64,000 nucleotides of DNA from an uncultured bacterium (lineage in GTDB: Bacteria > Myxococcota_A > Bradymonadia > UBA7976 > VGTA01), in NCBI GenBank assembly GCA_943788935.1, contig CALSSE010000029.1, forward strand, positions 1 to 64,000. Reading direction: 5' to 3'. Position numbers and translations under genes: made by a program. Shown in pieces: positions 9,827 through 55,822 of the stretch; within the stretch, counting starts at the first letter, position 1; the number at the start of each line of letters is the position of its first letter. The notes below the pieces were generated by a model. The model saw only the letters and a list, made by a program, of their open reading frames with translations. It did no database searches and had not been told where the DNA came from.

Positions 9827-12800
9827 TCAATTGTCGCTCGTAGGTCGTGAGTGATAGCGGAGATACACCACAATATCTTCAATGATCGGTCTCTGGTCAC
9901 GAGGCAAGTTGCGACCGGTGATCCAAGCGCTGTCAGTATTAGCGTCATCGATCAATATCGGGATACGCAGCTGCCAACCATTAGCGGAGAGGCTTCGTCC
10001 TCGAGCGAAGAAGCGCCAACATTCAGCTCCTGACGCGAGAGAGCCTGCTGTCTCCGACGCGTTAATACAGCTCCTCATTTGACCAGATCTGGTCGCAAAG
10101 GTGGCAGGCGTAGATCGTTGAGCCTCATTGGACTGCGGGGCATAGCCTATGGTGAATGGACGAACCGTGTACTGCGAAACGGGAGGTAGGCCAACCTCTT
10201 CTACCACTGATTCAGCGTGGCATGAGCGAATTAAATCGGTGCCACCACGTCTCAACTCATAGCGGATCGGCAGAGCATCATCACCTAAATTCTGTCCAAT
10301 AATATTGACTGCGATATTGCCTGGATGAGGGTCATTGACATCTTCAGCGGTCGCCAACAGATGATTACACTCTAGAGGATTAATCATCCAATTTGGCCCA
10401 TCGGGGCCAAATTCTTGCATGGTCAGAGGAGTCGAGAAGAGGACCTCAATCATCTCTACCGGTCTCTGATTCAGAACTGCTTGCCTGTAGTAGGGAGGGC
10501 TCGTGATGATATTGTTAAACTGCTCTCCGACGGTGACGACTCGGCCGGTTCTAGCATCGACGATGTCCTTGAGCCCGGGGAAGAGTCGGTCGCGTACAGA
10601 GAATTTCAACACCTCAATGTTATTGAGAGTGTCACAGTCAATTCCTTCTCGACCGCAGTACTCTAATTCATATTGAGTCAGCTCATTTATAAAACGCTCT
10701 AAATCATCTAGAGTACTAGAGTTGACGAGACGACTCCTCAACCCAGCGGCGTCATCAGGCGAAATATTGTATTGATGGATAAAGGCCATGTACATTCGAT
10801 AGGCATACTGTAACACCTCTCTAAACTTAGCATCGCTCTCTATGGCGAGTCGTCGACCTCTGAGGAGATTTCCCTTTTGTCGACCGACAAGATGATCGAC
10901 GATAAAGCGTACATCATCTTGGTAGGTGGCATAGTTGGCACCAATTTGATACCTAAGGTCATCGATCTCCATATTAGCGTTAAAGATCTGCATCGTTAGG
11001 GTTTGGAACTCGGTGATAAGGTCATCAACCTCACGAACCATCTCCATGATTTCATGACGTATCTCAGCCTGATCACCTCGAGCTTCGAGGACCCCACTTC
11101 GCACATCTAAAGAAAAGTCAGCAAGTTCTTTTGCTGCGTAAGCTACGAGCTTAGCAATACCCATCCCTGTTGCTCCACCTGCCACAATAGAACTACCAAG
11201 TATGCCCTGTGGACAATCAGTACCGACGGCTAAACCTGCTACGATCTCACATTCGATCCCTTCAAAAACACCGTCCAAAATCTTTTTGGGAATTTCAAGT
11301 CCCATGATGACGCCATCAGCAATACTCTTGGTTGCAGCAACCACTTTTTGAGCGATAAAGAGATTATGTCTAGGGGAGTAACAACTACCAAAGTCACCCT
11401 CTTCACCCTCACGACATTTGCGATGTAACTCAGCCCCTATACCGTATTTCTGGGTGAATCGCTTCAAGAGCGTTTCCACAGAACCGATGACTTGTTCCCT
11501 TTGAAATTCGAGCAGTCGCTTCTCTTGTATCTTTGAGCCCATTTGGCCTCCGACACACATCCTTGTTCTTCCCGCAAGGTTAACCGCATAGTCTCCAAAG
11601 CGATTTAAGTCACATCTAGGTGGGGCTGTAAGTGGATCGTCTCCAGTTCCATCTAAAATTGCGTTTGTGGCGTTCACAAAAGTCGTGACAACGTCTTTGC
11701 ATTGAGTGCCTGCAGTACCATAGTCATCATTGGCTGTGGTGTAACTTGCTCCGCTAGGAGCCTCTTTATCACAAGTATAGGTAAATGAGTCAGTAACATC
11801 AGTCCCGACAGCATTCAACCGAGTACAAGCAGCGTCGCGCACTGTTTCATCACTATTATAAAGTTTACAGTCTCGTATATCTTTGATCAGCTGATCATTG
11901 GTATATCGATTGAGTAGATAATCACAATAGTCGACTTTTCCATCAGCATTCTGATCCGTAAAAGTACTCTCTCCCATAGTTGCCTGTAGTTCACTCGCTG
12001 TAGGTCCACATTGTTCGGCGATGTATCCGGAGATCTCTCGTCGTGCGGCAAACACTTTCTCCTCAAGTGCATCAAGATCACTGAGAGAGGTCTTCATCTC
12101 TCGGACAGCTTCTGTGACCATGGTTCGCGCTTCAGCGAGTAAGCCACCATCGCCAGATTGACCGGTTAAAATGTCGAGATAATGGTGCCAGTTAGAGCGC
12201 TCGCTCTCTCTTGTTCTTGCGCTCTCAAAGTAAACCTGATGATCAAAGAGTCCAAGCTCATTTCGAGCAATATTGACCTGATTAATGATCTGCTGTCCTT
12301 CTCGGAAGAGCTGCTCTGAACGACCTTCATAGTTGACTAAAAAGCCCGGTTGATCTTGCCATTCTATTTGTAAGTGAAGCAAGTACGCTTGGAAGAGGTA
12401 TTCTTGCTGTAAAATATTCTGCAAGATGTTGAATTTAGGTGACAAGTTCCTCTTTAAGAAGACCCGGCGATCAAGGTCTACCATCGTCGCCAAGGTCTCC
12501 ATTCGGTCAGAGGCCACGGTCTGCATGAGTCCCAACCAGTCATTGCCTCTTTGCAAGTAAGCGTTAATAGGCCAATCGTAGAAGATCTTCATCATCGGTG
12601 AACTTGTAAGTATACTGATGATTTGACCATATTTGGAGAGAGCGATCGTCTGCTGCTCTCGTTTATAAACTGTGGCTGCTCCCTCTGTAAAGGGGTTCTC
12701 TTGGTTACGGTAGAGAGTCATGAAAGCGTCTGAGAGATGGCTATCGCCCTGAAACTTAAGACCTTGTATGAGATGAAGCCAAAAGCGGTTATGCTCTTTG

Positions 12801-15800
12801 AGAGTGAAGTGTACTTTCTCTACATCCTCTCTGTCTTCATCTGCATCTAAATCGATCTCACACCCTGATATGTTTATTGTGTCATCACAAAAGAGAGGAA
12901 GATTAGGGTCTGCCCTGCGTCGACACACTCCGCTAGCATCGGTGCTGTTTGCTCTTTTACATTCGAATTCTACAGGACAGTCTTCATCGGCTTGACAAGG
13001 GTCGCTATCTACTGAGTTCATACCGAAGATTGAAGCGACGTTTGTCGCAAACTCTGAGGTTTGTACCCATGGGGTCGACTCAGTTTCCGTACCCAGAAGC
13101 GCCTGCTGATACAGAGCCAGCCCGCAACGAGCGTTGTTTTCAGAGATACATAGCGCGCTGTCTCCTCCCTCGTAGTTTACATAACCTTGGAACTCGCTCG
13201 GGACATCTGTATTGACACAGAGTTTAGTCGCAGAGCTCACGCTAGAGGGTAACATGCTTAACAGCTCTGCATACGTGATTTGGGTGCGAGATAAAAAGGG
13301 GCTGATCTGGTTAGAGACGACAGCATCACTGTTCAATTGGGTGAGGAATTCCTCGTTTGGAATATCCAAACAGCTATAGTTGCTTAAATCTTGGATACAT
13401 TTTTGCCCAAATGAACCCGATAAATCACCAATCTGCTGACAGAGCTCACCTGTCTCGCAATCACTGACTGAGTTACAGGCAGTTGAAGTGCTTAAGCATA
13501 CGGAATGAACTTGGTCACAATATTCACCTGCACCACATTCTAAGTCACTTCTAGAGCAGGCTTCATCAACAATATAAAAATTTCTTCTCGCAGTATTATT
13601 AATGTCTTCTGAGCGTCTGACGCAGAGATTTCGCTCGGTATTACACTCATAGCCTGTAGCACAGTTACTATTTGTGGTACACTCCTCATCTTCAGGACAG
13701 AGCTGAACTCGATCTCTGAGGAAATCATAAACCGATAAATAGCTGGCCTCTGTATCTGCTCCTAAGCTCCCTAATGCTTCACCAATTAAATCCGAAAAAG
13801 TGATCAGATTAGAAAAGATTGGCTCTTCACAGGTTCGACGAGTCTCCGCGTCGAGACCGCATGAGTCTTGAACATTATTCAAATAGGCAGCATAATCACT
13901 CTTTTGAGTAAAAGTTTGCCTCTCCCCCCCATGACAATAACGATCTATTTGATCCTCAATCGTGTCTCTAATCGTATCAATGCTATCAAACACAGCAGAG
14001 CGAGTCTCTAAGCTAGAGAGCGCAAAGGTTGACCGCTCTGCTTGACTAAGACCTGAAGAGTCGGCGATGACCTGCCCAAGACTAAAGGTGCCACGTAGGG
14101 TGATGTCTTTGGGGGTCATCCCTTTGATTAACTCGCTATACATACCATAGAAATTGCCCGTCTTGTCGTCGAAAGGACCAAAGAGCTCAACGGTACGCTC
14201 AATATCTCTTTTAAAGAGATTTGTAGCGACAATGCCATCTGTGTCTGCTGAGGACTCACTCTCGGTGTAGTCGCTCTTAATCACACTTCTACCTATGAGA
14301 CGCATTAACCCACGATTAGGATAGTAAACACCCATAAAGGGGAGTTTATGATCGCTTCTAGTAGAACTTGAATTGGCGAAAGAGATGCTCTCAGCTCCAT
14401 CAAGATAGGCATAGACCTTTTGACCCCGAGCGATATCTCTTATATCGGGATCAATCCCTTGACTGATTAAAAGAGCGTTCCAAGAGGTGGTCTCTGTAGA
14501 GAGGTCTATTTTGAACTTGAGATTGATGGGAGTGAGGCCCGAGAGAGAATAACGAGCGTTTTGGTAATGTACTTTATATGAACCCGCATATTCACCTGAA
14601 GGGCTTCGTTTATTGTAATAAACAGTCAGCTCATCACTGTCTCCATTGTCGTATATAGCCTTAATTTTTGCTCGGTATTTGCCAGGTGACAGACGATCTG
14701 CGATCTCCTCTTCAAGCTCGACCTTAAGGCTTGGGTCACCGGCTGCGCTGACTGTGCCAAAAGGAGAGACGAGCCTGATCCAGGATTCGGTTTCAGAGTC
14801 AACAATACAGTCATCAACCCTCTCGTAGCAGTCTTCAGCAGTAGGATCAATCAAGGGGTCTCTGCCTGCTTCGCAGTCTTCGGGGAATGGAGCGATACAG
14901 CGGAGGTCTTCTTTCACGGCATAGTCAACCAAGAGACGATAACCAAAACTTATCGATGGATTAGAGATCACCTGTTGGCGAGTAATGAGGTCCATAATCG
15001 CGAGAGGTGACTCATCTCTAGTCTGGATGCCATCAAGATCTAGGCGTTTGCGGGCGAAGCGAATCGCGTACAGAGATGGGTCAAAGCTGAATGATTGTTG
15101 ATCAGTGGCAGGGTCGGGTAACACCCTACACTTGTTAACGTCGGTGCAGTACCATTCGCTGCTAGGGCAATCGATCGCTCGATAGCAGTGAGGTGCGCAC
15201 TGACCAAGAAAGCAATAGGCGCCTGAAGGACAATTGCGATCGATCTCGCAGGTAAGATTACTCACCTCTTCCACCGTTAAAGACTCACAGCGTCCACGTT
15301 CATAGTTACAGGTTTTCAGAGCACCCACACATTGACGATCTAGGTCACTAATACTCTCTTCACGAGATGGAATAAGACCACACTCTCGAGTACAACCATT
15401 GGTCTCTAGATCACAGTATAGACCGAGACCACAGTCTTGATCAGCAGTACAATAAAGCTCTATAGGTGGGTCGGGGCGATCTAAAAAGGCGAGAACACAA
15501 AGATCTAAGTCAAAAATATCAAACTGGTAATCTTGATTTTGATCGAGGAGTCGATTGAGGTTCGCCTCAAGCGAGCAGCGGTTTTGGCTCCAAGCAGGCT
15601 CTCCACCCTCTAGCCAGTAAGCGATACATTGATCAAGGAGGTTGAGATCCATCTGAAAGGGGACAGGTCGGCAATAGTAGCCATCTGTATGACTCACACA
15701 TTGCTCACCAAAGGAGCAGAGGTTAGGTTCACCGCTAACCCCCTCGCCTTCACAGCCAACGAAGCATTGACCGATCATCGCTCCCTCTTCGATCACGCAC

Positions 15801-16018
15801 CTCTTGGCAAACTGATGATCCTGGCACTCCATCCCTCCTAAAGTACATTCAGCGCCTATTCCACCTGCCTCGGTACACTCATTACTGACAGAGACCACTG
15901 GATTAGATTGAGCAAAACTCACAGATAGCGCGCTGACAAATATAACTAGGGTGCAGGTTAATATAGACTTGATGGAAGGAAGAGGAGTGACTGAATCCCT
16001 TAAATAATGACCGAACAT
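9827..16018 (-). CDS. Giant secreted Cys-rich protein with two dockerin-like calcium loops
   Basis: 2063 residues. The signal peptide ends SFAQ near residue 37. The N-terminal region has several small knots of the form DxDCGxGxYCDxxxxxC, and more occur near residues 780-880. Two segments fit a dockerin/EF-hand loop (D1-x-N3-x-D5-...-D9-x-x-D12): DQNQDYQFDIFD at about 156-167, and DQNADGKVDYCD at about 1354-1365 followed by LLNRY. The middle and C-terminal parts are largely helical and charged, with heptad-like stretches, and I recognise no family there. It starts 3 bp after the preceding stop, with an AAGGTAAG site upstream, and its own stop lies 1 bp before the alternative start of the next gene. 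The function is unknown. The calcium loops and operon position suggest a structural component of an extracellular complex. Confidence 0.8.
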   Translation of the reverse strand: MFGHYLRDSVTPLPSIKSILTCTLVIFVSALSVSFAQSNPVVSVSNECTEAGGIGAECTLGGMECQDHQFAKRCVIEEGAMIGQCFVGCEGEGVSGEPNLCSFGEQCVSHTDGYYCRPVPFQMDLNLLDQCIAYWLEGGEPAWSQNRCSLEANLNRLLDQNQDYQFDIFDLDLCVLAFLDRPDPPIELYCTADQDCGLGLYCDLETNGCTRECGLIPSREESISDLDRQCVGALKTCNYERGRCESLTVEEVSNLTCEIDRNCPSGAYCFLGQCAPHCYRAIDCPSSEWYCTDVNKCRVLPDPATDQQSFSFDPSLYAIRFARKRLDLDGIQTRDESPLAIMDLITRQQVISNPSISFGYRLLVDYAVKEDLRCIAPFPEDCEAGRDPLIDPTAEDCYERVDDCIVDSETESWIRLVSPFGTVSAAGDPSLKVELEEEIADRLSPGKYRAKIKAIYDNGDSDELTVYYNKRSPSGEYAGSYKVHYQNARYSLSGLTPINLKFKIDLSTETTSWNALLISQGIDPDIRDIARGQKVYAYLDGAESISFANSSSTRSDHKLPFMGVYYPNRGLMRLIGRSVIKSDYTESESSADTDGIVATNLFKRDIERTVELFGPFDDKTGNFYGMYSELIKGMTPKDITLRGTFSLGQVIADSSGLSQAERSTFALSSLETRSAVFDSIDTIRDTIEDQIDRYCHGGERQTFTQKSDYAAYLNNVQDSCGLDAETRRTCEEPIFSNLITFSDLIGEALGSLGADTEASYLSVYDFLRDRVQLCPEDEECTTNSNCATGYECNTERNLCVRRSEDINNTARRNFYIVDEACSRSDLECGAGEYCDQVHSVCLSTSTACNSVSDCETGELCQQIGDLSGSFGQKCIQDLSNYSCLDIPNEEFLTQLNSDAVVSNQISPFLSRTQITYAELLSMLPSSVSSATKLCVNTDVPSEFQGYVNYEGGDSALCISENNARCGLALYQQALLGTETESTPWVQTSEFATNVASIFGMNSVDSDPCQADEDCPVEFECKRANSTDASGVCRRRADPNLPLFCDDTINISGCEIDLDADEDREDVEKVHFTLKEHNRFWLHLIQGLKFQGDSHLSDAFMTLYRNQENPFTEGAATVYKREQQTIALSKYGQIISILTSSPMMKIFYDWPINAYLQRGNDWLGLMQTVASDRMETLATMVDLDRRVFLKRNLSPKFNILQNILQQEYLFQAYLLHLQIEWQDQPGFLVNYEGRSEQLFREGQQIINQVNIARNELGLFDHQVYFESARTRESERSNWHHYLDILTGQSGDGGLLAEARTMVTEAVREMKTSLSDLDALEEKVFAARREISGYIAEQCGPTASELQATMGESTFTDQNADGKVDYCDYLLNRYTNDQLIKDIRDCKLYNSDETVRDAACTRLNAVGTDVTDSFTYTCDKEAPSGASYTTANDDYGTAGTQCKDVVTTFVNATNAILDGTGDDPLTAPPRCDLNRFGDYAVNLAGRTRMCVGGQMGSKIQEKRLLEFQREQVIGSVETLLKRFTQKYGIGAELHRKCREGEEGDFGSCYSPRHNLFIAQKVVAATKSIADGVIMGLEIPKKILDGVFEGIECEIVAGLAVGTDCPQGILGSSIVAGGATGMGIAKLVAYAAKELADFSLDVRSGVLEARGDQAEIRHEIMEMVREVDDLITEFQTLTMQIFNANMEIDDLRYQIGANYATYQDDVRFIVDHLVGRQKGNLLRGRRLAIESDAKFREVLQYAYRMYMAFIHQYNISPDDAAGLRSRLVNSSTLDDLERFINELTQYELEYCGREGIDCDTLNNIEVLKFSVRDRLFPGLKDIVDARTGRVVTVGEQFNNIITSPPYYRQAVLNQRPVEMIEVLFSTPLTMQEFGPDGPNWMINPLECNHLLATAEDVNDPHPGNIAVNIIGQNLGDDALPIRYELRRGGTDLIRSCHAESVVEEVGLPPVSQYTVRPFTIGYAPQSNEAQRSTPATFATRSGQMRSCINASETAGSLASGAECWRFFARGRSLSANGWQLRIPILIDDANTDSAWITGRNLPRDQRPIIEDIVVYLRYHSRPTSDN

Positions 16019-16021
16019 AAT

Positions 16022-16597
16022 TTACTTACCTTCTCTCAGGTTTTGAGGGTGATCACTGCTCTCGAGAGTGACGCCAATATTAGCATTCGCGGGCGCAAAG
16101 TATTGTCGTCGTTCTTGAATGAACAGCTCGTCATCAGCGCTCAGATTACCTTGAAGAGTGAGGTGAGCGAGGACTCCACTCTCAAGTGTGTTAAGGTTTC
16201 CTGTCCCCATGATGATGACTCTAAGCACACCGCTGTTGGGCTCTTGAACGATCAGATCTTTCATCGCGCTCTGCAGCACATCTCCCTTTTCTGAATTTAA
16301 GAGCACTAATCCTTCGGGATGAGAAATGAAGATCTCTGCTGTCCTTGGGGCTACTTGTCCCTCGCGTTTATGATAATGGAGCGCTACCTTTGTGAGACCA
16401 TCTATCTCTGTAGATCTTTTCAAAAGGAGTGTAGGCGGAGTGTCACCGATCGCAGTCCCCCTCTCGGTCACATCCTCATCGATCGCACCGGTCAGAACAG
16501 AGACTGATGAATGATTTATATCCTTTGTGTTGCACGCTGAGAGGCACACACTACAGATGAGACATAATATCATCAAAACGCTATGAAAAAAGCTCAT
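16022..16597 (-). CDS. Small lipoprotein with a cohesin-like domain
   Basis: 191 residues. A hydrophobic signal ends in the lipobox LSAC, so the mature protein should be lipidated. After a linker of about 40 residues, the remainder alternates short beta strands in the order seen in cohesin-like modules: an exposed early strand, a hydrophobic strand ending HPEGLVLL, a glycine turn with an LQSAMKDL segment, then GVLRVIIMG and a late GVLAHLTLQG strand. It ends with a YFAPANANIGV motif that is echoed in the next two upstream genes. The ATG overlaps the preceding stop as TAATG, which implies strict translational coupling. The cohesin assignment is by eye and needs a profile or structure search. 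It could instead be another immunoglobulin-like sandwich. Confidence 0.75.
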   Translation of the reverse strand: MSFFHSVLMILCLICSVCLSACNTKDINHSSVSVLTGAIDEDVTERGTAIGDTPPTLLLKRSTEIDGLTKVALHYHKREGQVAPRTAEIFISHPEGLVLLNSEKGDVLQSAMKDLIVQEPNSGVLRVIIMGTGNLNTLESGVLAHLTLQGNLSADDELFIQERRQYFAPANANIGVTLESSDHPQNLREGK

Positions 16598-19500
16598 TAG
16601 CGACTCCTTTGCAGCGATAACGGAATAGGGAACGTTAGAGTTGATTGACTGGTCCCAACAAAGTCACCCAAGTCTCCGACATCATTGTTATTTACGTCAA
16701 CGAAACAGCTCAGGTCATAGGCGCCATATATTAAGAATATATTGTTATTTGTCGCATAGACAAAGCTGTCTAAAGAGCAGCCCTCTGTACATGTCCTGCT
16801 TACTGTTCCCACGATGGGGCTGTTGGTTTGATTAGGGCTTGGGATCGGTATGCCCTGAAGATTGAAAAAAGTATTTGGAGGTGAGAAGATGCACACCATT
16901 GAGTCATCGGATTGCTCATCGCTTGGAGAACCACTTATGCCTGTAACGGTGCCTAACACTGATACTGCCTGCAAAGGTAACAAGTCAGCTGCGGTGAGAG
17001 ACACTGACCTCACAGTCCCCTCGTCATCACTTGTAATGATAAGTGGACTGTATCGACCGATATCACCTCCACTGTAAGTGGGTTGGTTAGAGCTGCTATC
17101 ATAAGAGTTATTGGCATTAACATAGGTGTAGAGGTGATAGGTGCCCGGTGAGAGGTAAACGGGATCGGAGGAAGAGCCCTCAGTGTTCTCTAAGTGTTTA
17201 ACGAGTATAGTGTTGTCAGTTGGAAGCTCTCCTTGCATCTGACCGATGAGTCTCCCGCTCAGATTACCAACGGTTGAAGAATAGAGCTCAGCTTTAACCG
17301 ATCTTCCGGGTAATTGATTAACATCTAAACTTAGCTGTACTTTTGTACCTAGCTGACATCGGATCTCTAAGTTATTTATATTACTTGTGACTCGACCCTC
17401 ATTATTAGCCACATAACAAGTAGAGAATTCGGGACTGCGCTCCACAGAGACCACATAAGGGCTGTCCATAGGCAAGCGATCGGGTAGAGTAAACTCTGTG
17501 GCTCCAGCAGGGATTTCATATAGGTTAGGAGAGGTGTTTACGCTCACTTTAATGCCACTCAAGTTTTCGCCATTAATCACTGTACCTGAAAGCGTAAATA
17601 TCTGGTCTACTTGATTGGCGTCTTCACACTGAATGATATAAGGGACACCACTAATGTTATTATAGACCTCATAATAACTAGGATCATTCACGCTCTCTGC
17701 ATCTAAGAGGTTTCTGACCTCACAGGTGACGGCTTCATTAGCGTTCTCTTCTTCTACTTCGATACGGTATCTCTGACTATTGAATAGACGGCTCGTAAAG
17801 ACAATGGTAGCAGGCTGAGGGGAGCCTTGGACTTGGCTAGGCATGGTGTAACTGCCATTTGACCTCGTCTCAGTTTGATTGATGAGCGAGACAAGCGTGG
17901 CGTTCACGGTAGCGCCAACCGGTAGCCCGAGGATAGGCATTGAGACCTCAAAGGTTTCAATGTCACTGCAGTCGATTTGCACCCCTTGTTCGATATCTAA
18001 GCCATTATTGGGCATAACGCCCACTCCCTGAGTAATGCTACAGTTCTGGCTTTGAGGTTGTCCAATAATGGAGAGATCATAAGCTTCATTTTCTCTTAAC
18101 TCAAAATCGAACTGACCTACCCCTTCTGTATTGATCTCGCTCGTGGTGAGAGTGATCGTATCTCCTGAGACACTCTCAATGAGAGTCAGTCGTTCAATAT
18201 CGCTCAATCCGCTCAAAGTATAACTCAGTGGATGATCAGGAAGCTCGTTACATTGAATGAATACTAGAGGAGGATCTACAGCTTCGACAGTCCCTATGCC
18301 GCCTTCTGTAACCTGGCAGCTTAAGCCGGAAGGTGAGCTAAGGACACTCACCGTATAGTTGTCACCGTCTTTAAGCCCACGGGCAAAAGAGAATAGAGCA
18401 TCTGCATAAGCGGTCGCTTCTTGAATCAGAGTGCTCTGTCCAACAGACTCTAGACGAAGTGAGAGCGCTGGTCCGCCGACCAAGGTTGGGTCACAAGCAT
18501 TAGTGGCGTAATTAACACAGCCTTTAATCGGTCGACTCTGCTCACAGAGTATCTCAAATTGGCCTGTATTGAAGTCATTACTGACGGTACCGCTTAAGGG
18601 GAGCCCTGTAGGGTTGAAGAAGCAAGCTAGCCCCTCTGTTAGAGGTTGCTGAGCCACTGTCATATCATATCTCCAGCCTTCAATCATCGGGTCAAAAGCG
18701 ATGACCCCATTCTCCGATACAGTGATAAACTGTCCAACCCCATTGCTGAGGACAAGACCGACCCCTGTCGAATATCCCCTCACATTGACTATCGGTATAT
18801 AGCTGGGAGGTGGTACGGGATCAAAGCCTCGATCATGACCAAAACTTCTGCTGACCGAGAGCTCTAGACTTTGATATTCAGTGATTGGGTGCGTGTAGGG
18901 ATCAAATGATACCGCATTCCCTGACCATTCATAACATACGTCAACATCCTCGCCGATTTGTACCAAGCAGCTGTCACCAGTATCTTGGGCGATCACACCA
19001 CTCTCAGTTTGAGGACCGAGATGAATAATTCCTGTATATTCTGCGAAGGTACTCTCCGAGGTGTTCTCGGCATTGGTATAGGTACAGTTGAGTAAAGCAA
19101 AACTTCCATCGAAGTTAAGCGTTGCGCTGTCATTGGCCCCAACTAGACATCTGCTTGGTTCACGTTCACAAAAGTCATCTTTTTGATTCGATTGCTCAAG
19201 ATCAATCCGTCCAAAGAATACTTTTTGTGGGCGTCCTTGCAGATCAAATGGGACCTGACCTCCACCGTAAGAGCAGATGGGGTTACGAATGAGGCTATTA
19301 CTAATACTGCCACCGGCAGATTTGATATCGAGGACTGCTACAGCCGCCGCTCCTCCGTATAAAAAGTCATTTTCGCTTCGACCTCGACTTGGACATCTAG
19401 CGTGTCCCCGGTCTCTACAGGATTGAATCGCTTCATACTCTGGTATATCCAACCGGTAGCCAAGCTGATAGCGGCTCCCCTGAGCCCTTCTCTCGCACAT

Positions 19501-22500
19501 CGTTTGAGCTAAGGGTTTGCTCAAGTCAGCATCACTTTGCATGACATCGCTGATACAGAACTCCTTATCAAAGTGTCGTAGTCCGGAAGCGCTCCCTGTA
19601 ACATTTTGATATGGCGAGGAAATCAGACTCAGCCGCACATCCTCATAAGGGTGTACTGAATCAAGTAGGAGAGGAGTACGGTTGGCTTCCTCTTGGGTAC
19701 GATGTGGAATCGTCAGTCGACCAAGAACTTGATACTGATTCCCATAATATGGACCCCCTCTCACTTCAACTAATACCTCTGGGTTCGCTCCATAATCACC
19801 AACGCCATATGCGTTGATCTCTAAGGGGTAACTCTCTCCGATCGCTATGGTATAGTGTGTCCAAGCGTTGGGGTCTAATTCGAACTGAGCATCAGCGGCT
19901 CCCATCAAAGTGAGCGGGCTGAGGTCCTCCCACTGCCAATCACGTAAGACACAGCGTCCTTGCTCACAGAATTGGGTGACAGGGTCGCAGAGATAAAGGC
20001 TCTGCTCATCTTCAAAGGAATAGCACTCTGTCCGACAGGCGCCAACATCACAATAGAAGGCACGTTCGTCGGGACATCCTTCTGTACGGGCAGCGGTGGC
20101 TCCATTGATATTGACTTCGACTTGACGACATTCATTACAGGCCGATGTGTTCACATCACAGAATAGACAAGGGCCATTGAGACAGGTCTGCGTGTAGCAC
20201 TCTTGGTCACTTGAGCAGTCTGCCACACAGACATATTCAGCCCCTCCCGAGAGCCCAACCCCACCCTCCTCGCTCTCGATGGTGACCGGCCTGAGCCGAC
20301 ACTGAGCGCCATAAGCGGCACATGAATCGGCCATATCAGCGGTTGAGTCTGGATCACAGGCAGTGACCACACACTCGGACTCTATGCATAGATGAAAGGG
20401 AGGGCACTCGAGGTGACTCACTCCGCAGCGTGGTCGCTGAGAGCTGATGGGCTCTGACCGATCAAGCCACTCTCTACCTCTCTCAGCTTCTGATCGAATA
20501 GAGTGTATATTACGAACACCTAAGTGCATCTTCAACTCATCAAGACCCCCGCGAAGCGCTGTCATCATCTTCTTTTGAGTTGGATGTTTAACGGCTCCTA
20601 CCCAATTGCACGGGAAATAGCGCTCTTCAAAGCGCCAACTGAAGCCCTTATATTGCCTGCTCTGTTCACTGAGATTAACGAGATTCTCAGTGTTGAACAA
20701 GTTGGCGGTGAGGAGAAGCTGTGGTCGGCTTAAACTCACTGCATGAAGAAGTAGTCGGTCGAGGTCTGGAGAGAGTCGAGCCTCTTTGATAAGCTCAAAT
20801 TTCCCCTGAGCGTTGAAGACTTGATCAATACAGTCAAGAGTATTGGACTCTCCATCACCATTTCTATCTTCGAAAGGTTCAGGGATTCGGTTCTGGTTTA
20901 AGTCCCAACACTCTTCTCCAGGGTTTAGATCACGAATCACCAAAAACTCTTCAGCAGTTCTTTGAACGATCCCTAAATGATTTAAGATCTCGGAGTCGCT
21001 CCATGTGTCGATCTCCCCAAAGACTCCCCCCCGTGATTTAATCTTAAATCGAGCGATAGTGAGACCTAAAGGAGGGTCATTCGCTCCTAGGCTATTATTC
21101 GCGCTGTTATAGAGTGGATATACTCCTCTTGGAGCGGTGACTTGGATACTAAGTAAGGCACGACCCGCCACGTTTTGCTCAGAGATCTGCACCGACTTAT
21201 TATAGGGTGTACGAGATATGTTTGGGGAAGGGGGGTTGACCATAGAAGGCTGAATAGAGACTAAACCATTGGTTTCGATTTGAACCCGGTCCCCATCAAG
21301 CTCTACGAAGACCTGAGATACCTCTTGCAGGAAGCAGTCTCTGTTATCCCATTGGTTATCCTTAGTGACATCCTCATCCGCGTCTCTGAGGTTGTTGTTA
21401 TTTTTATCCCAACACATCGAATCAAATGATGTTTGGTTTGGTCGGTAGATCAAATCTATGGTGGCAGAGTGGGCGACCTCGTCCCTCCCGACCACGTTAA
21501 GCTCAAACTTATGTTCGGTGTCTTCACGTTGAGATACTTCTCGAGTTGATCCTTCGGGCAATATCGATCTCATCGAGCCGAGCATATATCCGTTTTCAAG
21601 CTCATTAAATTCTGTGTAGGTTCTCTTGAAGAGCAGACGCTCGACCGCTTGTTCGCCAGTCGCGGTGATCCTCATGTAGCGTTTAGCATCGAGGAGGGAT
21701 ACCTCCTCAGAGAGCTGATCACTGTTGAGCGCGTTAATTTGATTAGCGCTAGAGAGAGGGATCACCTCATCGATGATTAACTCATCGATCCCTTTGCCTT
21801 GGTACAGAGGGTCAGAGCTCTCATAGAGTAAGCGACCTCGTTGTTGTCGGATAGAGTCGTCTGTACCTTGGCTTTTCCCCTCTAACCATCGCACCTTTCT
21901 ATGATGACGTATATCATCACCCTCAGTCAGCCGATAAAAGATGAGACTCTGATCCGCTAGACGGTCTTGATAATTAAGTTGTTCAACGGTTTCACCATTT
22001 GGCAGCTCAATGGCTGGTCTGTTATCGAGAGGATCATAGGCGATATAATATAAATGATATACGAGGTTAGCGATGTTATCTCGGGCGATCATATCAAAAG
22101 CGCTGCTCTCGAAAACAATCCCTGTACCATCGGGCGACCATTTAGGAGCCCGAGCGCTAAAGCCTAGATCACTGTTCCCAAATTCCACGGTGAGCTGTTG
22201 ACGGTCGGTGCCATCGCCATTAGCAATCCAAATTTCATTGTGGCCACTCGCATTGGAGAGATAGAGGAGTTTATCAAGTATCGGCGAGTAGTCTGGCTCT
22301 GAGTAGGAGAATTCTCCATCGCCGAGAATGAGCTGATCCGTTGTACCATAGAGGTCACGTCTCCTCACTTTGAAGAGCCCTGACTCTTTCACTCCGTAAT
22401 AAATAGTTTGAGGAGGGGTCCCCCCTAGAAATGATCCCTCTCGCTGAAGAATGATCTCTCGGTTACGACTAAATTGCGGACATGCGAACGGAGAGGGTCC

Positions 22501-25056
22501 AGCGGCGTCAAAGAGGTGAGAGTTTGTGAGCTGTTGTCCATTGAAATAAAAACGCATCAGTCGCTGGGTGGCGTCATAGGTAAAGCTAACATGTTGCCAA
22601 GCATAAAGGGGAAGCTCGGCTAAGGGATAGGTGTCTAAGCCGCTCGAGAGATCTCGAGCGAGTATGTCTCCATCGAAGAATTCTAGCTGATAAGCCTCTC
22701 GTTGCTCATCATATCTCAACCAGAGGCCAAATCGAGTTCGTTCGCTCCGGTCATGATGAGCGAAAATGATCTGTGGGGTTGATAGAGGTTCATGATCGCT
22801 CAAGCCTTCGGTGTAAACCCACGATGAGAAACTGAAACTTTGAGCTTCTCTATTAAGTTGGTCGTTAATGACGAGCGGAAGACGAATATGGCTTTGGTTA
22901 CCATCAAAATAACCGGCACGATTCAATACACCATCGATGGAGAGGTCTAATAGAGACCGTCCGCTTTGGAGACGATCGAGCTGGGAGATGATCCGCTCTT
23001 TGAACGACTCTTGAGACTCTAATGCACAGCCCGATATCAGCTCGCATAGCTCTTCTCCGCTGTGAACTTGACCATAGCTGAGGGGCGCTTCAATCGTCTC
23101 AAAATCGTACCATAATTTTAGCTGTACCCCTGATTGTCCCCGAGGGGCAACGTTGATCGCTGAGCCCCAAACTTGGTCCTCTCGTAATGAAGCGATCGCC
23201 GCGTTATGATTGGGAGCCATACTGTTTTCACGGAGGTCAGGATCATCGGTAAATTCTATGGTGATCGGTCTATCTCCCACTCGTTTGAAGACCAATTCGA
23301 CTAGGGGACCATATGGAATAGGAGCGCTGCTTGTAGCGTCAAACACCGACAGCCTTAAGGTGCCATCGGGGAGATGTTGAGTCGCCAGCTGCTTCCCCTC
23401 TAGCCCCCCGGAATAAAGGAGCGCAGGGAGGCGACGAGAGTCGGCGAGAACTAGCTGATCTTGTGGATAGGTAAAGTGTAGATCTAAAGCTCTCACCGGA
23501 GCATCTGAATGATCAAAATATACCCAAGCGATGACCTCTTGATCAGTCTCAGATTTCAACTCGAGGTGAGCGACGGTACAAGCGGCACCGCTGAGACATC
23601 TCCTCTGGCAGACTCCCCGACCGAATTGATCATCGTAGACACAGCGTTCATCAAGCGCACAGGTTGCTCCACCATAAGCGCTTAAATCACATAGAGTCTT
23701 ACCTTGATCATCGAGTATACTTTGTAGCCAAACAGGGACATGAGGGTCGGTCTCACTAGGTCTACAGGCTTCGATATCATCTCCTCGCCAAGATTCATCT
23801 GTGACTAGATCACAGACGACATCTGGACAAATGAAAGGGCGATAATTGCTCTGCCAGTAGCTCCCTTGATCATCGGGCGCATTCAAAGGTCGATCAAACT
23901 CGAATTCATCTAGTCGGCAAGTCTCAGGGTCACAGAAGGGGTAGAACGGCCCATTGGGAGTATCTAATTCACTCCCGCTGAGGTGCGGACACCCATATTT
24001 AGCGCTCTCACTGCTCTCATCATAGGGACAGAGTGTGCCCACGATGACCATCGAGCCATCTAGTTGGGCTCGCTGAACGTCACCAGTCTCTTCCGCACAC
24101 TCTGGATTCGGTAGTGGGGTTACCTCAACATTAAGATTAGCTTGACCGCTAGCGCCGTTAAAGCCCTCCACAAATACAAAGTATTGACCTCTGTCGAGAC
24201 TTTCAAAGACCAGCCGCTCTTCTCCTCCCTCATCGGGATTATAAGCGCAGGCCTCTTGAGCCTCTTCTTCTTCGCAGTTTGATCGGAGATAAATGATGGC
24301 GTCAAAATTGGGGTCTTCAAGGGTGACAGTTACTCTAGAGGGAGTGAGGAGTCTCAATTCAATCATCTGCTCAGAGCCGCTAGGCGTCTCTGGGTGATTG
24401 CATGAACCCGTATAGTGATCGCTTGCCTCTTGAGTATCGACTCGTAGCTGTCCACCGCTCTGCTCAAGAACTAAAATGGGGCTAGTCCATTCACAGCGAT
24501 CAGTGATGGTGAGCGCCTCAAGGTCATCACAGGAGGCCTCTGTCATCTGATCACCCTCATCGGGCTGATCGGTGTTATTAGAAGCCTCATCTAAGAGAAT
24601 ATCGCCGTAGCAGATTAGTTGTGACGGATCGAAGTTTGCGAAAGTGTTAAACTGTGAATTCACTTCGCTGCCGACGGTATTAGGACGAACGCTCGATTGA
24701 AACTCAAGGATGGCTAATTTCAAATCATGGCGATCTATGGGGTAGACATTAAGTACACCATCAGCTCCTCGACGAGCGCCATCTTTCTCCCAAGTATATG
24801 CGGGTGTTCCACACCCTTGCAGACAGATAAAACGCTCACTTTGTTCTTCATAACTTGGTGAGGTCGAGATCGCAAAAATGTGTCGATCAGCGCATGATTC
24901 AGTGCATTGAATCCATTCATTGAAACGATTTATCTCTTGTAAGCTCAGAGGGTCAGCATACACCGTCTGTAGGGAGAGGAGCATAGCACTTAATACATAC
25001 ACTGTAATGTAGAGTGGCCGAATCAAGCTAGGGGACATCATCATATTGACTTTCAC
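16597..25056 (-). CDS. 2819-residue secreted multidomain protein (cohesin-like, LamG-like, TolB-like propeller, repeats)
   Basis: I chose the GTG at 25056. An AAGGAG site lies 6 bp upstream and the previous stop 1 bp before it, whereas the nearest ATG is too far from that site. Order of parts: signal peptide ending VYA; a PPC-like sandwich (about 230-340); small Cys clusters; a cohesin-like region (about 490-620); a LamG/concanavalin-like region (about 640-860) with WQHVSFTYD; TolB/PD40-like propeller blades (about 890-1060) with KWSPDG; two CWDxN...ED...D...DC calcium-loop motifs (about 1219-1242 and 1379-1405); a Cys-rich segment (about 1500-1650); then from about 2130 a series of Ig-like repeats with a GLSGT/GLP start and a Cys-containing end. 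Its stop overlaps the next start. I infer a scaffold-like extracellular protein. No active site is visible. Confidence 0.85.
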   Translation of the reverse strand: MKVNMMMSPSLIRPLYITVYVLSAMLLSLQTVYADPLSLQEINRFNEWIQCTESCADRHIFAISTSPSYEEQSERFICLQGCGTPAYTWEKDGARRGADGVLNVYPIDRHDLKLAILEFQSSVRPNTVGSEVNSQFNTFANFDPSQLICYGDILLDEASNNTDQPDEGDQMTEASCDDLEALTITDRCEWTSPILVLEQSGGQLRVDTQEASDHYTGSCNHPETPSGSEQMIELRLLTPSRVTVTLEDPNFDAIIYLRSNCEEEEAQEACAYNPDEGGEERLVFESLDRGQYFVFVEGFNGASGQANLNVEVTPLPNPECAEETGDVQRAQLDGSMVIVGTLCPYDESSESAKYGCPHLSGSELDTPNGPFYPFCDPETCRLDEFEFDRPLNAPDDQGSYWQSNYRPFICPDVVCDLVTDESWRGDDIEACRPSETDPHVPVWLQSILDDQGKTLCDLSAYGGATCALDERCVYDDQFGRGVCQRRCLSGAACTVAHLELKSETDQEVIAWVYFDHSDAPVRALDLHFTYPQDQLVLADSRRLPALLYSGGLEGKQLATQHLPDGTLRLSVFDATSSAPIPYGPLVELVFKRVGDRPITIEFTDDPDLRENSMAPNHNAAIASLREDQVWGSAINVAPRGQSGVQLKLWYDFETIEAPLSYGQVHSGEELCELISGCALESQESFKERIISQLDRLQSGRSLLDLSIDGVLNRAGYFDGNQSHIRLPLVINDQLNREAQSFSFSSWVYTEGLSDHEPLSTPQIIFAHHDRSERTRFGLWLRYDEQREAYQLEFFDGDILARDLSSGLDTYPLAELPLYAWQHVSFTYDATQRLMRFYFNGQQLTNSHLFDAAGPSPFACPQFSRNREIILQREGSFLGGTPPQTIYYGVKESGLFKVRRRDLYGTTDQLILGDGEFSYSEPDYSPILDKLLYLSNASGHNEIWIANGDGTDRQQLTVEFGNSDLGFSARAPKWSPDGTGIVFESSAFDMIARDNIANLVYHLYYIAYDPLDNRPAIELPNGETVEQLNYQDRLADQSLIFYRLTEGDDIRHHRKVRWLEGKSQGTDDSIRQQRGRLLYESSDPLYQGKGIDELIIDEVIPLSSANQINALNSDQLSEEVSLLDAKRYMRITATGEQAVERLLFKRTYTEFNELENGYMLGSMRSILPEGSTREVSQREDTEHKFELNVVGRDEVAHSATIDLIYRPNQTSFDSMCWDKNNNNLRDADEDVTKDNQWDNRDCFLQEVSQVFVELDGDRVQIETNGLVSIQPSMVNPPSPNISRTPYNKSVQISEQNVAGRALLSIQVTAPRGVYPLYNSANNSLGANDPPLGLTIARFKIKSRGGVFGEIDTWSDSEILNHLGIVQRTAEEFLVIRDLNPGEECWDLNQNRIPEPFEDRNGDGESNTLDCIDQVFNAQGKFELIKEARLSPDLDRLLLHAVSLSRPQLLLTANLFNTENLVNLSEQSRQYKGFSWRFEERYFPCNWVGAVKHPTQKKMMTALRGGLDELKMHLGVRNIHSIRSEAERGREWLDRSEPISSQRPRCGVSHLECPPFHLCIESECVVTACDPDSTADMADSCAAYGAQCRLRPVTIESEEGGVGLSGGAEYVCVADCSSDQECYTQTCLNGPCLFCDVNTSACNECRQVEVNINGATAARTEGCPDERAFYCDVGACRTECYSFEDEQSLYLCDPVTQFCEQGRCVLRDWQWEDLSPLTLMGAADAQFELDPNAWTHYTIAIGESYPLEINAYGVGDYGANPEVLVEVRGGPYYGNQYQVLGRLTIPHRTQEEANRTPLLLDSVHPYEDVRLSLISSPYQNVTGSASGLRHFDKEFCISDVMQSDADLSKPLAQTMCERRAQGSRYQLGYRLDIPEYEAIQSCRDRGHARCPSRGRSENDFLYGGAAAVAVLDIKSAGGSISNSLIRNPICSYGGGQVPFDLQGRPQKVFFGRIDLEQSNQKDDFCEREPSRCLVGANDSATLNFDGSFALLNCTYTNAENTSESTFAEYTGIIHLGPQTESGVIAQDTGDSCLVQIGEDVDVCYEWSGNAVSFDPYTHPITEYQSLELSVSRSFGHDRGFDPVPPPSYIPIVNVRGYSTGVGLVLSNGVGQFITVSENGVIAFDPMIEGWRYDMTVAQQPLTEGLACFFNPTGLPLSGTVSNDFNTGQFEILCEQSRPIKGCVNYATNACDPTLVGGPALSLRLESVGQSTLIQEATAYADALFSFARGLKDGDNYTVSVLSSPSGLSCQVTEGGIGTVEAVDPPLVFIQCNELPDHPLSYTLSGLSDIERLTLIESVSGDTITLTTSEINTEGVGQFDFELRENEAYDLSIIGQPQSQNCSITQGVGVMPNNGLDIEQGVQIDCSDIETFEVSMPILGLPVGATVNATLVSLINQTETRSNGSYTMPSQVQGSPQPATIVFTSRLFNSQRYRIEVEEENANEAVTCEVRNLLDAESVNDPSYYEVYNNISGVPYIIQCEDANQVDQIFTLSGTVINGENLSGIKVSVNTSPNLYEIPAGATEFTLPDRLPMDSPYVVSVERSPEFSTCYVANNEGRVTSNINNLEIRCQLGTKVQLSLDVNQLPGRSVKAELYSSTVGNLSGRLIGQMQGELPTDNTILVKHLENTEGSSSDPVYLSPGTYHLYTYVNANNSYDSSSNQPTYSGGDIGRYSPLIITSDDEGTVRSVSLTAADLLPLQAVSVLGTVTGISGSPSDEQSDDSMVCIFSPPNTFFNLQGIPIPSPNQTNSPIVGTVSRTCTEGCSLDSFVYATNNNIFLIYGAYDLSCFVDVNNNDVGDLGDFVGTSQSTLTFPIPLSLQRSR

Positions 25057-25057
25057 A

Positions 25058-26134
25058 TCACTCTCCTTGACTGAGGGCAGGCCAAATGACAAGACCCTCG
25101 CCGAGTGAAGAGCCCCATAGCTGTAAATCAGCCGCTGGGGGGGCAAAGGTTTGCTCGCGTTCAATCACCTTTAACTGTACGGGCTCGGCGTCGGTACTCC
25201 CAAGCTGAATATCTAGCACTAACCAGTCTCCAGTAGCGATCTCGTTGGTGTTTTGAGTAGAGAGGACCATAAAGCTGTAGACCGATCCATTAACCCGGTA
25301 TGGCATACCTGTCGCCGGGTCAGGAATCAGTTGTTTGTTGGCGTTGATCAATGACTCACCTAGCCCTACTCGTCCTAGAATCGCTGGGCCAGTCATCATC
25401 AAGTGTATATCGGCTATTTGAGGATGCGGGGCCTCTTCGGGGAGCTGTAACGAGAGAGCGATTTGAGCCGAACTCACCTGACCACCGATCTCGCTAGTGC
25501 TTAATACTCTGAGACGAAGCGCGCAGCCTTCGCAGCTCTCTGATCGAGGGCAAGGAGAGCATTGACCGCCACAACCATCATCATCACCACAGCTCTTGTC
25601 AGCGCATTGAGGGATACACACACATCGGTTATCTTCGCAGCGTTGACTGTCACCACATGATCCACAGCTCTCTCCGCAGAGCTCGCCACATTCTGCTGAA
25701 GCGCTCTCACAACTTGGTGAGCAGTCATTCGGATTATCGTCGCCGCCTTGAGAGCCCTGCCCTCCTCCCATCTCAGCTCCACCCTCTACTTGCCTTCCAC
25801 TCTCATCATTAGAGACACACATCGCCGATTCGCAGACCTGATCATCGGCGCACTCTCCACAAGAGAAGCCACAGCGAGGGTCTACCCCACACTCTCTCCC
25901 CTGACAATTGGGTTCACAGATCTCCGTTACACCTCGGTCTGATGGCATCTCGGTCACCGTCGCGTCTAGGGAGGGCGCTGTATTCACAGGTTTATTGCAA
26001 GCGACCGCTCCCATAAATATGGAGAGGCTTATCAGAGCGAAACAGTAGGATCGAGTCTTAGAGCATGAGCCACCAGAAGGAGTCATGAACCAAGCGTTGA
26101 TATAGGCTAAAATCTTAACGCATGTGTTTTTCAT
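25058..26134 (-). CDS. Lipoprotein with Cys-rich knots and a C-terminal cohesin-like domain
   Basis: About 358 residues from the ATG at 26134, which has a GAGGGAG site just upstream. The alternative ATG at 26146 overlaps the preceding stop as ATGA but lacks such a site. The signal ends GAVAC, a lipobox. The N-terminal half has three or four knots of the form CxPxCxxxxCGxDxxCGxxCGxC, seen in many myxobacterial surface proteins, with a Gly-rich linker between. The C-terminal 150 residues (about 212-355) are strand-rich, with IADIHLMM, a GxGESLI turn, VYSFMVLS and GDWLVLDIQL, ending TFAPPAADLQLWG. This layout parallels the cohesin-like parts of the two genes downstream. I infer a membrane-anchored member of the same assembly. 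Confidence 0.8.
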   Translation of the reverse strand: MKNTCVKILAYINAWFMTPSGGSCSKTRSYCFALISLSIFMGAVACNKPVNTAPSLDATVTEMPSDRGVTEICEPNCQGRECGVDPRCGFSCGECADDQVCESAMCVSNDESGRQVEGGAEMGGGQGSQGGDDNPNDCSPSCESASAECGELCGESCGSCGDSQRCEDNRCVCIPQCADKSCGDDDGCGGQCSPCPRSESCEGCALRLRVLSTSEIGGQVSSAQIALSLQLPEEAPHPQIADIHLMMTGPAILGRVGLGESLINANKQLIPDPATGMPYRVNGSVYSFMVLSTQNTNEIATGDWLVLDIQLGSTDAEPVQLKVIEREQTFAPPAADLQLWGSSLGEGLVIWPALSQGE

Positions 26135-44254: not shown

Positions 44255-47200
44255 TCATGTGTGATCTAAAGATGAGTGATCTAAAGATGAGTGATCTAAA
44301 GATGAGTGATCTAAAGATGTGTGATCTGAAGATGAGCGCGCCACCATTATTCTTTGTCGCTTGTATGCTAGAGAACCGAGCATCGTGAGTAATAGGAAAA
44401 GGAGAGAATGACCGTGAGATGATTGATCACAATGCGATGCTTGGAAACTCCCTCCGGCAAAGTTACGAGTAGAGAGATCACGACAGATGCTTGGTTCTCC
44501 TTCACACACATAGGCGTCTTCTACGTCACACCGTAGGTTGCAGCCATCTCCGGCGATGAGGTTACCATCGTCACAGGCTTCTTCTCTGACATATCCATCG
44601 CCACACACGGATTCACACACCATGGGCCTTTGCTCCATAGATGTAAATGCACAGCGATAGCCAATGTCTACCTCACAATTGTCAGAGCAGCCATCTCCGG
44701 GCATGACATTGCCATCATCACAGGTCTCAGCGCCATGCAGGAGACCATCTCCACAGATGGAGATACATAGAGAAGGGCTACCATCACACCGCCATCCCTC
44801 TTCTATACCGCATGATCTAGAGCAACCATCATTGGCCAATAAGTTGCCATCATCACACTCTTCACTGTCTATTTTTATCCCATCACCACACTCGGGACGA
44901 CATCTGCCTCCACTCTCATCGCATTCCCAGCCCGGTTCTACTGAACAGTTAGCGTTACAGCCATCATTGGAATCAAGATTTCCATCATCACATAACTCCG
45001 TTGACGCTCTAAGACCATCTCCACAAGTCGCTTGACACTCTGATGGTGATCCCTCACATCGCCAACCGGACTCAAGTTGACACAATGAGTTACAACCATC
45101 GAAATTTAGTCTGTTGCCATCATCGCAGACTTCATCGCCCATCAATAAGCCGTCACCACAGATTGAATCACAGACCGTCGGTTCATTATCACAACGCCAG
45201 CCGTCTTCAAGTTCACATTGTTCTGAACAGCCGTCTCCTCCGTTTAATGCCCCATCATCACATTCTTCTGTTCCTCTGACTAAACCATCTCCACAGAGAG
45301 ATTCACAGGCCATCAAGATCGCATCACATTGCCACCCGCTCTCCACTCGACAAGTGGGGGAGCAGCCATCCCCTCCTTCGAGATTACCGTCGTCACATGT
45401 CTCGTCTCCATAAACTTGACGATCACCACAAATCGGTTGACAGCTTATCAAGTTGGAACATCCCCAACCCTCTTCTATCTGACACATCGATGAACATCCA
45501 TCATCATCCTCTAGTCCACCATCATCGCAAGTCTCTAATCCTCGTACACGTCGATCGCCACAGATACCATCACATAGAGAAGGAGCGCCCTGACAAAGCC
45601 AAGCGTCTTCAACAAAACATTGTTCATCACAGCCATCGTTTGATCTTAGATTTCCATCATCACAGCTCTCATCTCCAAAGATAAGCCCATCTCCGCAAAT
45701 GGCTCTACAGTTTGCCCCGTCTAGACAGCCCCAACCGGTCTCGACTTGACACGTCTCATTACATCCATCTCCTGCGAACAGCCCCCCATCGTCACACTCT
45801 TCTTGATCTCTGAGTAAACCATCACCACAGAGGCCGTCACAGCGAGATGGCTCGCCCTGGCATCCCCATCCGTCTTCTATCGCGCAATCCTCATCACACC
45901 CATCATCGCCCAAGAGATTTCCATCATCACAGCTCTCAGTCGCTCTCAACAATCCATCTCCGCACACGGGGGTGCAGCTCAAGCCTCCACTCCCTTCGCA
46001 TGTCCACCCTAACTCTTCTTGGCAAGTGGCATCACACCCATCGCCTGCTACTAGGTTTCCATCATCACAGCGCTCTGATGCTAATAAGATCTCATCACCA
46101 CAAATAGGAGAGCAAGCAGATAGATCTCCTTCACATCTCCATCCTTGCTCGATAAGACAAGCATCGGAACAGCCATCTCCATTGTTTGTATTCCCATCGT
46201 CACACCCTTCATCACCGATGCTCACCCCATCACCACACACACCAATACAGCTTGAGGGTTCACCCAAACAGAGCCATCTATTCTCCGTCGTACAAATGGC
46301 TGAACAGCCATCATTATTGATCAGGTTACCATCATCACAGCTCTCATCGCCGATGATGATTCCATCACCACAAACCACGTCACATAGAGAGGGTTCACCT
46401 TCGCAGCGCCACCCCAGCTCTAACTCACAAAGAGCGCTACACCCATCGCCCCCGACTTCATCACCATCATCACAGGTCTCAGGAGCGGTCAACCGGCTGT
46501 CAGCGCAACGCTCTAGAACATCGGAGACGCCATCGCCATCTGAATCAGGTAAAAGTAAGCTAATGCCTCCTTCATTAGGATCTACCGAGCTCCATAAACC
46601 GTTATCATCTGTATCTTGATCCTCTCCTCCCGTTGGATCTACTTGACCATTGTTATCTGTATCTATCCCCCCACCCTCAACGAGGTCGAAGTGTCCATCT
46701 CCATCGGAGTCTAGATCATAGGGATTAAGTATGCCGTCATCGTCGGTATCACAAGCCGCGGGAAGAAGAGCCCTCACCTCTGCGTCTTGGTCATCGACAT
46801 CAACCAGTACAGAGATCCCATCGTCATCTTCATCGATGAATACGTCCATCGCCCCATCGAGATTAGCGTCGACCTCTTGACCTAGGCACTCAGCCAGATC
46901 AGTGATGCCATCATTGTCACTATCGATATCTAGATGGTTAGCGATCCCATCGCCATCGATATCAAAGAGAGGATCAAGAACGTCACAAAACCCATCGAGG
47001 GGTGATAAGTCATCACAGTCTCTCAAAAAAGCGTCCTCATAATCAGCGACCCCATTCTGATTTTGATCTGTTGAGAGATCCACCCCTCCGAGCTCTTGGA
47101 TATCAGAGATCCCGTCATTATCACTGTCAGGATCATTCACATCTGCGATGTCATCATCATCAAAATCAGCGACGAGCTCAGTAAACGCTGAAATCGCAGT

Positions 47201-55536: not shown

Positions 55537-55740
55537 GGCTTCTCTCTCTATATCTGATCCTCTGAGCAGGTTGATGCTCTGAGGTCATAGGTGTGAAATC
55601 CCTTTAAAAATTATGGTATGCGGTATATGTCTCTCAAGCGCAACAGCCCGATCTCTTTTAAAGAGAGGTCTCGTCAAGACTGATCTTGAGATCGGATCAA
55701 TCCCCCTCTGTGATTGAGGCCATTCACTCAAATGGTTGAT

Positions 55741-55796
55741 ATTCTGTTGGTTACATTCTGTTGGTTACATTCTGTTGGTTACATTCTGTTGGTTAC
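55741..55796. repeat. 14-bp minisatellite, four units, upstream of the kinase gene
   Basis: ATTCTGTTGGTTAC occurs four times head to tail, ending 26 bases before the kinase ATG. It lies where a promoter or leader would be, so unit number could affect spacing or expression. Confidence 0.93.
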
Positions 55797-55822
55797 GCTC
55801 ATCACCCCTTGAGGAGTTTTTC

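Follow-up and report, generated by a model that had tools for sequence, protein, structure and literature searches.

A candidate non-cellulosomal cohesin-dockerin system in an enzyme-free operon for giant proteins

The DNA analysed here, referred to as the window, is a stretch of 64,000 nucleotides from a draft genome assembly of 5.95 Mb in 31 contigs. Its minus strand carries an apparent operon running from 37364 to 546 in the gene order P8, P7, P6, P5, P4, P3, P2, P1, P0 (Table 1), and the gene coordinates and strand given in an earlier note on this DNA proved correct on re-checking. Signal peptides and lipoboxes were judged by visual inspection of the translated genes: P3 (LSAC), P5 (AVAC) and P1 (LSAC) display lipobox-like signals that give them the look of lipoproteins, in line with the earlier description of two cohesin-like proteins as lipoproteins, and P2, P4 and P6 have the look of ordinary secreted proteins. 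The OmpA-family C-terminus of P0 makes it a possible outer membrane/peptidoglycan anchor. Pfam and NCBIfam scans of the operon returned no enzyme family, which agrees with the earlier remark that no enzyme is visible, and the operon thus lacks the dockerin-bearing carbohydrate-active enzymes that characterize a cellulosome. Outside its dockerin-like module, P2 retrieved no relative from Pfam, NCBIfam or the PDB, and a profile search gave no function; the same holds for a large conserved, mostly helical-looking region at about residues 1040-1850.

Table 1. Genes and modules of the operon (positions within the window)
Feature	Position	Strand	Description
P8	34098..37364	-	Secreted, Cys-rich, fibre-like and related to P6; probably the operon's first gene
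P7	29321..33991	-	Secreted, Cys-rich, fibre-like and related to P6; TSP3 and bacterial Ig/cadherin repeats
P6	26143..29451	-	Secreted, Cys-rich fibre-like protein, DUF4215/myxo disulphide repeats
P5	25058..26134	-	358-aa predicted lipoprotein; Cys-rich knots and predicted C-terminal cohesin domain
P5 predicted cohesin domain	25061..25528	-	HMM E 7.5e-7
P4	16597..25056	-	2819-aa secreted protein; two cohesin-type domains, LamG-like domain, TolB-type propeller stretch, Cys-rich modules
P4 first predicted cohesin domain	23131..23595	-	HMM E 7.2e-7
P4 LamG_3/concanavalin-A-like domain	22504..22905	-	Pfam E 4.7e-9
P4 second cohesin-like domain	about 20962..21480	-	hhalign E 2.2e-6 against the family
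P4 calcium-type motif CWDKNNNNLRDADEDVTKDNQWDNRDC	21334..21414	-	Insert within the second cohesin-like domain
P4 calcium-type motif CWDLNQNRIPEPFEDRNGDGESNTLDC	20830..20910	-	Behind the second cohesin-like domain
P3	16022..16597	-	191-aa predicted lipoprotein; nearly all of its length is one predicted cohesin domain
P3 predicted cohesin domain (modelled stretch)	16025..16444	-	AlphaFold2 model and PDB fold matches
P2	9827..16018	-	2063-aa secreted protein with dockerin-like module
P2 dockerin-like module, about residues 119-182	15473..15664	-	Two helices, then a complete EF-type loop DQNQDYQFDIFD and a third helix; the first loop is missing
P2 loop DQNADGKVDYCD, residues 1355-1366	11921..11956	-	Called dockerin in the earlier note; unconserved, unlike dockerin
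P1	4348..9948	-	Predicted lipoprotein, Cys-rich repeats; next after P2
P0	546..4337	-	TSP3 repeats and OmpA-family C-terminus, Pfam OmpA E 2.5e-14

The fold of the P3 domain was modelled with AlphaFold2 from an alignment of 28 family members, which gave a pLDDT of 86 (core >90) and a pTM of 0.78. In this model the domain adopts the beta-sandwich (jelly-roll) fold of cohesins, as evidenced by a Foldseek search of the PDB in which ranks 1 to 39 were cohesins (E 1.4e-5 to 1.7e-3, probability 1.00), among them 5nrm, 1ohz, 3ul4, 4dh2 and 2zf9, with TM scores of about 0.5-0.63; the 39 include 2o4e, whose title speaks only of a C. perfringens glycoside hydrolase interaction module, and the first clearly different match was an integrin at rank 40. 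The cohesin-fold reading of the earlier note is strongly supported for P3, and for P4 and P5 it is supported by homology. Profile comparison points the same way: profile A4 aligned with 20 Pfam-recognised cohesins of the same phylum at an hhalign E of 1.3e-6, and a rerun scored 38.8 against 16.5 for the best of 100 column-shuffled versions. A G002 protein consisting of TSP3 repeats and a C-terminal domain bridges the two families, matching the P3 HMM at E 2e-7 and Pfam Cohesin at E 1.8e-4 and 23.5 bits, just under the cut-off of 24.1. Pfam Cohesin PF00963 has zero matches above its curated cut-off in the window's genome, Pfam and NCBIfam called no cohesin in these modules, and comparing the P3 profile directly with PDB sequences yielded chance matches only; the missing PF00963 match is a detection limit of the Pfam model and no structural criterion. 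From the sequence profiles and the model, the P3 domain is almost certainly a divergent cohesin.

The claim that three neighbouring genes encode cohesin-like regions was borne out by an HMM built from seven P3 homologues, which recognised homologous cohesin-type domains in P4 and P5 at E values of about 7e-7 (Table 1). Searched genome-wide, the same HMM found P4 at E 4.1e-7, and the family profile, which includes this domain, found the first P4 cohesin at E 6.1e-40; the P4 and P5 domains of other loci matched the P3 HMM at E 1e-3 or better. We regard these P4 and P5 domains as predicted divergent cohesins with a confidence slightly below that for P3, because their identity rests on homology to P3. 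The shared AP-containing closing motif proposed earlier stands as a sequence feature, since at least 90% of the 28 domains keep its A-P, but confidence of the AlphaFold model is low at this point (pLDDT 54-63). Strands 3, 5 and 6 of P3 carry invariant Glu, Lys and Arg residues, which, if they point outward, would lie on what is the dockerin-binding face of known complexes; we give this little weight, and these charged residues do not single out P3 because they are largely common to the P4 domains.

A region of P4 that was absent from the earlier note appears, with weaker support, to be a further member of the cohesin-like family. This second domain aligned with the family at a score of 41.7, compared with 15.5 for the best of 60 shuffles, and its match to Pfam-type cohesins was weak (E about 1e-3). 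The two loops of P4 that had been read as dockerin-type turned out to be CWD...DC motifs, the first lying inside this second cohesin-like domain and the second behind it; among the P4 proteins scanned, the second motif occurs only in the window and in G002. Compared with dockerins, the CWD loops scored 18.1 (E 5.5e-4) over the loop part only, 16 columns in all. As they lie in or just behind a beta-domain and outside a helix-loop-helix context, we rejected them as dockerins.

The dockerin-like module of P2 has a different setting. Its loop, at residues 159-170, is flanked by conserved helices and kept in all nine loci, and residues 121-182 form the best conserved stretch of P2. The design of the module is constant in nine homologues, with an F.MDLNLLD helix, a linker, an LEANLNRLLD helix, the loop and a final helix. 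The loop follows the consensus DQ(N/D)x(D/N)xx(F/Y)(D/N)xFD, its calcium-loop positions being kept in nine of nine sequences with Asp at position 12; Asp rather than Glu at this position is a dockerin habit. The module thus combines an EF-type calcium loop, Asp at position 12 and a helix after the loop, as dockerins do. AlphaFold2 modelled the module with medium confidence (pLDDT 73, range 60-73 over five models) and placed helices at 33-45, 58-66 and 76-87; the loop separates the second helix from the third, which is the dockerin order. Against 30 recognised dockerins of the phylum, hhalign returned E 4.1e-5 and a score of 24.5, a level reached by 0 of 200 shuffles (best 16.5), in an alignment that covers 24 columns only, the loop and its helix.

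Could this loop be a thrombospondin type-3 repeat or a generic EF-hand loop, leaving the cohesin half alone as real? TSP3 repeats do occur in P0 and P7, and our controls comprised TSP3 repeats rather than a generic EF-hand family. Compared with 100 TSP3 repeats of these genomes, however, the module scored only 8.7 (E 0.12), a far poorer fit than the 24.5 obtained with dockerins, and it does not show the tandem DxDxDGxxDxxDNC loops without helices that define such repeats; the helix after the loop in the model and the Asp, not Glu, at loop position 12 in all nine homologues likewise argue for the dockerin reading. We consider the TSP3 or EF-hand explanation, the first of which the earlier note had raised against itself, very improbable.

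The dockerin reading has its own limits. The duplicated loop-helix arrangement of dockerins is incomplete here, the first repeat being a helix alone and the second having the loop, and the P2 module is not a canonical two-loop dockerin because its first repeat is without a calcium loop. Pfam Dockerin_1 did not match the module and NCBIfam likewise called no dockerin in it, a PDB sequence search with the dockerin-like profile yielded chance matches only, and a fold search with the medium-confidence model produced no significant match of any kind, dockerins included. Relative to Dockerin PF00404, the module shares the DxNxDxxxDxxD loop, Asp-12 and the helix after it, and the middle and first helices are present, whereas the first calcium loop is lost and the linker measures about 35 rather than about 21 residues. 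We conclude with good confidence that the P2 module is dockerin-like, a real, half-degenerate dockerin.

Of the two dockerin-type loops that had been assigned to P2, only the one at residue 159 (dockerin E 4e-5) survived this comparison. For the loop at residue 1355, conservation is poor: L053 retains it, L054 has an altered form, and the four other homologues compared lack it. Against dockerins it scored 9.5, which is noise level next to the 24.5 of the loop at 159. We rejected it as a dockerin on both counts, and the interface built on it in the earlier note is probably the wrong one.

We found nine P3-P2 loci in total, the window included, and in every one of them the stop of P3 and the start of P2 overlap or adjoin. 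Relative to the end of the P3 stop, a candidate P2 start codon lies at -3 in six loci (ATGA type), at +4 in two and at +5/+8 in one; the choice of start is uncertain in the G+C-rich loci. The genes for the predicted cohesin lipoprotein P3 and the dockerin-bearing giant P2 therefore look translationally coupled. A genome scan named six loci, including a G002 contig and a G054 contig, and second P3-P2 copies lie on G222 C281 and G382 C101; the P5-P4 part assigned to the second G222 copy sits on a separate contig, C14, so its linkage is assumed. The P5, P4, P3 and P2 modules co-occur, and the order P5-P4-P3-P2 is kept wherever contigs are long enough, with a P6-like fibre gene between P4 and P3 in other loci. 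In G054 this P6-like protein (L050, 2871-5717) ends, unlike P6-P8 of the window, in a Peptidase_S74 domain, an endosialidase-type intramolecular chaperone, which suggests trimeric fibres. The distribution is sparse: strong P2 and P5 relatives were present in 2 of 95 relatives. Among 379 genomes sampled from the phylum, 5 contain the P2 module, with a single copy in each locus, and the one same-genus genome examined lacks it. The named locus-carrying relatives are labelled as metagenome assemblies of Myxococcales, Deltaproteobacteria or Proteobacteria, and a search of viral contigs and plasmids found no relatives.

On balance, we favor the interpretation that the operon encodes a rare enzyme-free, non-cellulosomal cohesin-dockerin system that assembles the cell surface by holding giant proteins on the outer membrane. 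In the putative mechanism, P3, a small lipoprotein predicted to sit in the outer leaflet of the outer membrane, would be made coupled to P2, and the dockerin-like module near the P2 N-terminus, steadied by one calcium loop, would dock into P3 in a presumably calcium-dependent contact of still putative stoichiometry, thereby keeping P2 on the surface. P4, with its two cohesin-type domains, and the P5 lipoprotein would supply extra docking sites and could join further giant Cys-rich, lectin-like and fibre-like proteins, P6-P8 among them, in a surface layer, an appendage or an adhesin, so that the role of the whole would be adhesive or structural; P0, of the OmpA family, could fasten the assembly to the envelope. 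The more specific proposal, that a new, Pfam-invisible cohesin type and a one-loop dockerin serve scattered lineages related to myxobacteria as a dedicated enzyme-free mount for giant proteins at the outer membrane, has in our judgment an even chance of being right.

The pairing of P3 with P2 is predicted only indirectly, from two genes that stay together and appear translationally coupled at all nine loci. With four cohesin-type domains in the operon and a single dockerin, P3 is the presumed partner, and the modules may be genuine while P2 docks into a cohesin of P5 or P4 and P3 serves as an adaptor for another partner. All cohesin types are retained together, P5 is likewise a predicted lipoprotein, and the genome holds further cohesins (C11, C3) as well as a peptidase-like protein with a two-loop dockerin (C5), all of which would suit such an arrangement; only P3, however, directly overlaps or abuts P2, and does so in every one of the nine loci, so we regard a P5 or P4 partner as unlikely. 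We also considered that the cohesin domains may be structural beta-sandwich or adhesion domains that do not bind the P2 module, its loop being a stabilising calcium site. The animal protein TMEM132, reported to be a cohesin homologue with no detectable dockerin partner (PMC6030884), offers a precedent, and the P2 module is a half-dockerin by sequence that retrieved no dockerin in the fold search. That two module classes known to bind each other elsewhere are coupled in nine of nine loci, and that no other part of P2 is as well conserved as its module, nevertheless render a non-binding role improbable.

Cohesin-dockerin pairs are among the strongest known protein-protein contacts and are viewed mainly as enzyme scaffolds. 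Cellulosomal cohesins (types I, II and III) and the anchoring proteins OlpA, OlpC and ScaE resemble P3 in fold and in providing a small surface-anchored cohesin carrier; P3 differs in its identity of only 8-18% in structural alignments, below Pfam detection, and its operon in the lipoprotein anchor, the Gram-negative-type host and the lack of a glycoside hydrolase. Non-cellulosomal cohesins of Clostridium perfringens (2jh2/2vo8) and Archaeoglobus fulgidus (2xdh) are among the best P3 fold matches and likewise stand outside cellulosomes, although the C. perfringens modules sit on glycoside hydrolases, whereas here the carriers lack an enzyme domain and a single operon encodes the pair. Many lineages are known to possess cohesins and dockerins of the non-cellulosomal kind (Peer et al. 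2009, cited through PMC9012536), and adhesins with adjacent cohesin and dockerin domains have been described in syntrophic sulphate reducers and ANME archaea (PMC10553843, PMC9012536). The latter share with P2-P5, by description and not by sequence, Gram-negative carriers (the sulphate reducers), adjacent domains, no role in cellulose use and a proposed function in adhesion, but their modules are recognised by domain libraries. Cohesin and dockerin modules outside cellulosomes, including adjacent ones in Gram-negative bacteria, are thus already known, and this locus is a rare, well conserved variant, of which a limited open-access literature search found no published description. If the interpretation is correct, this plug-and-socket pair is also used simply for cell-surface building in Gram-negative-type bacteria, and current domain models overlook part of the family. 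The candidate pair, at about 140 and 95 residues, is short enough for direct testing.

The operon may be the hub of a small cohesin-dockerin network rather than an isolated pair, since the family profile found two more cohesins in the same genome, on C11 (E 2.7e-11) and C3 (E 5e-4), and a dockerin lies on C5. The C11 cohesin domain (G000 C11 171708-172022; L169, L172) closes a 1756-residue TSP3 protein, and the lipoprotein encoded after it (L172 12104-13969) may, judged by eye, carry another cohesin of the family. On C3 (G000 C3 486333-486692; L170, L173) the cohesin ends a Cys-rich lipoprotein that adjoins a giant PKD-type protein. The C5 module (G000 C5 93408-93569; L001, L174) is a canonical-looking two-loop dockerin that falls just short of the Pfam cut-off and forms the C-terminus of a peptidase-like protein with an HExxH-type motif.

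Three features of the window lie outside the operon. At 44255-48307 a 1350-residue protein contains many DUF4215-like Cys-rich repeats and a C-terminal transmembrane-like stretch, with a tandem SSLDH repeat at its extreme end. The lipoprotein encoded at 53917-54912 combines a long MNAGT tandem repeat with five near-identical CSDGIDNDGDDFTDCDD repeats. Finally, 55736-59279 holds a serine/threonine-kinase-like gene whose formylglycine-enzyme-like C-terminal part apparently continues in another frame, a possible frameshift.
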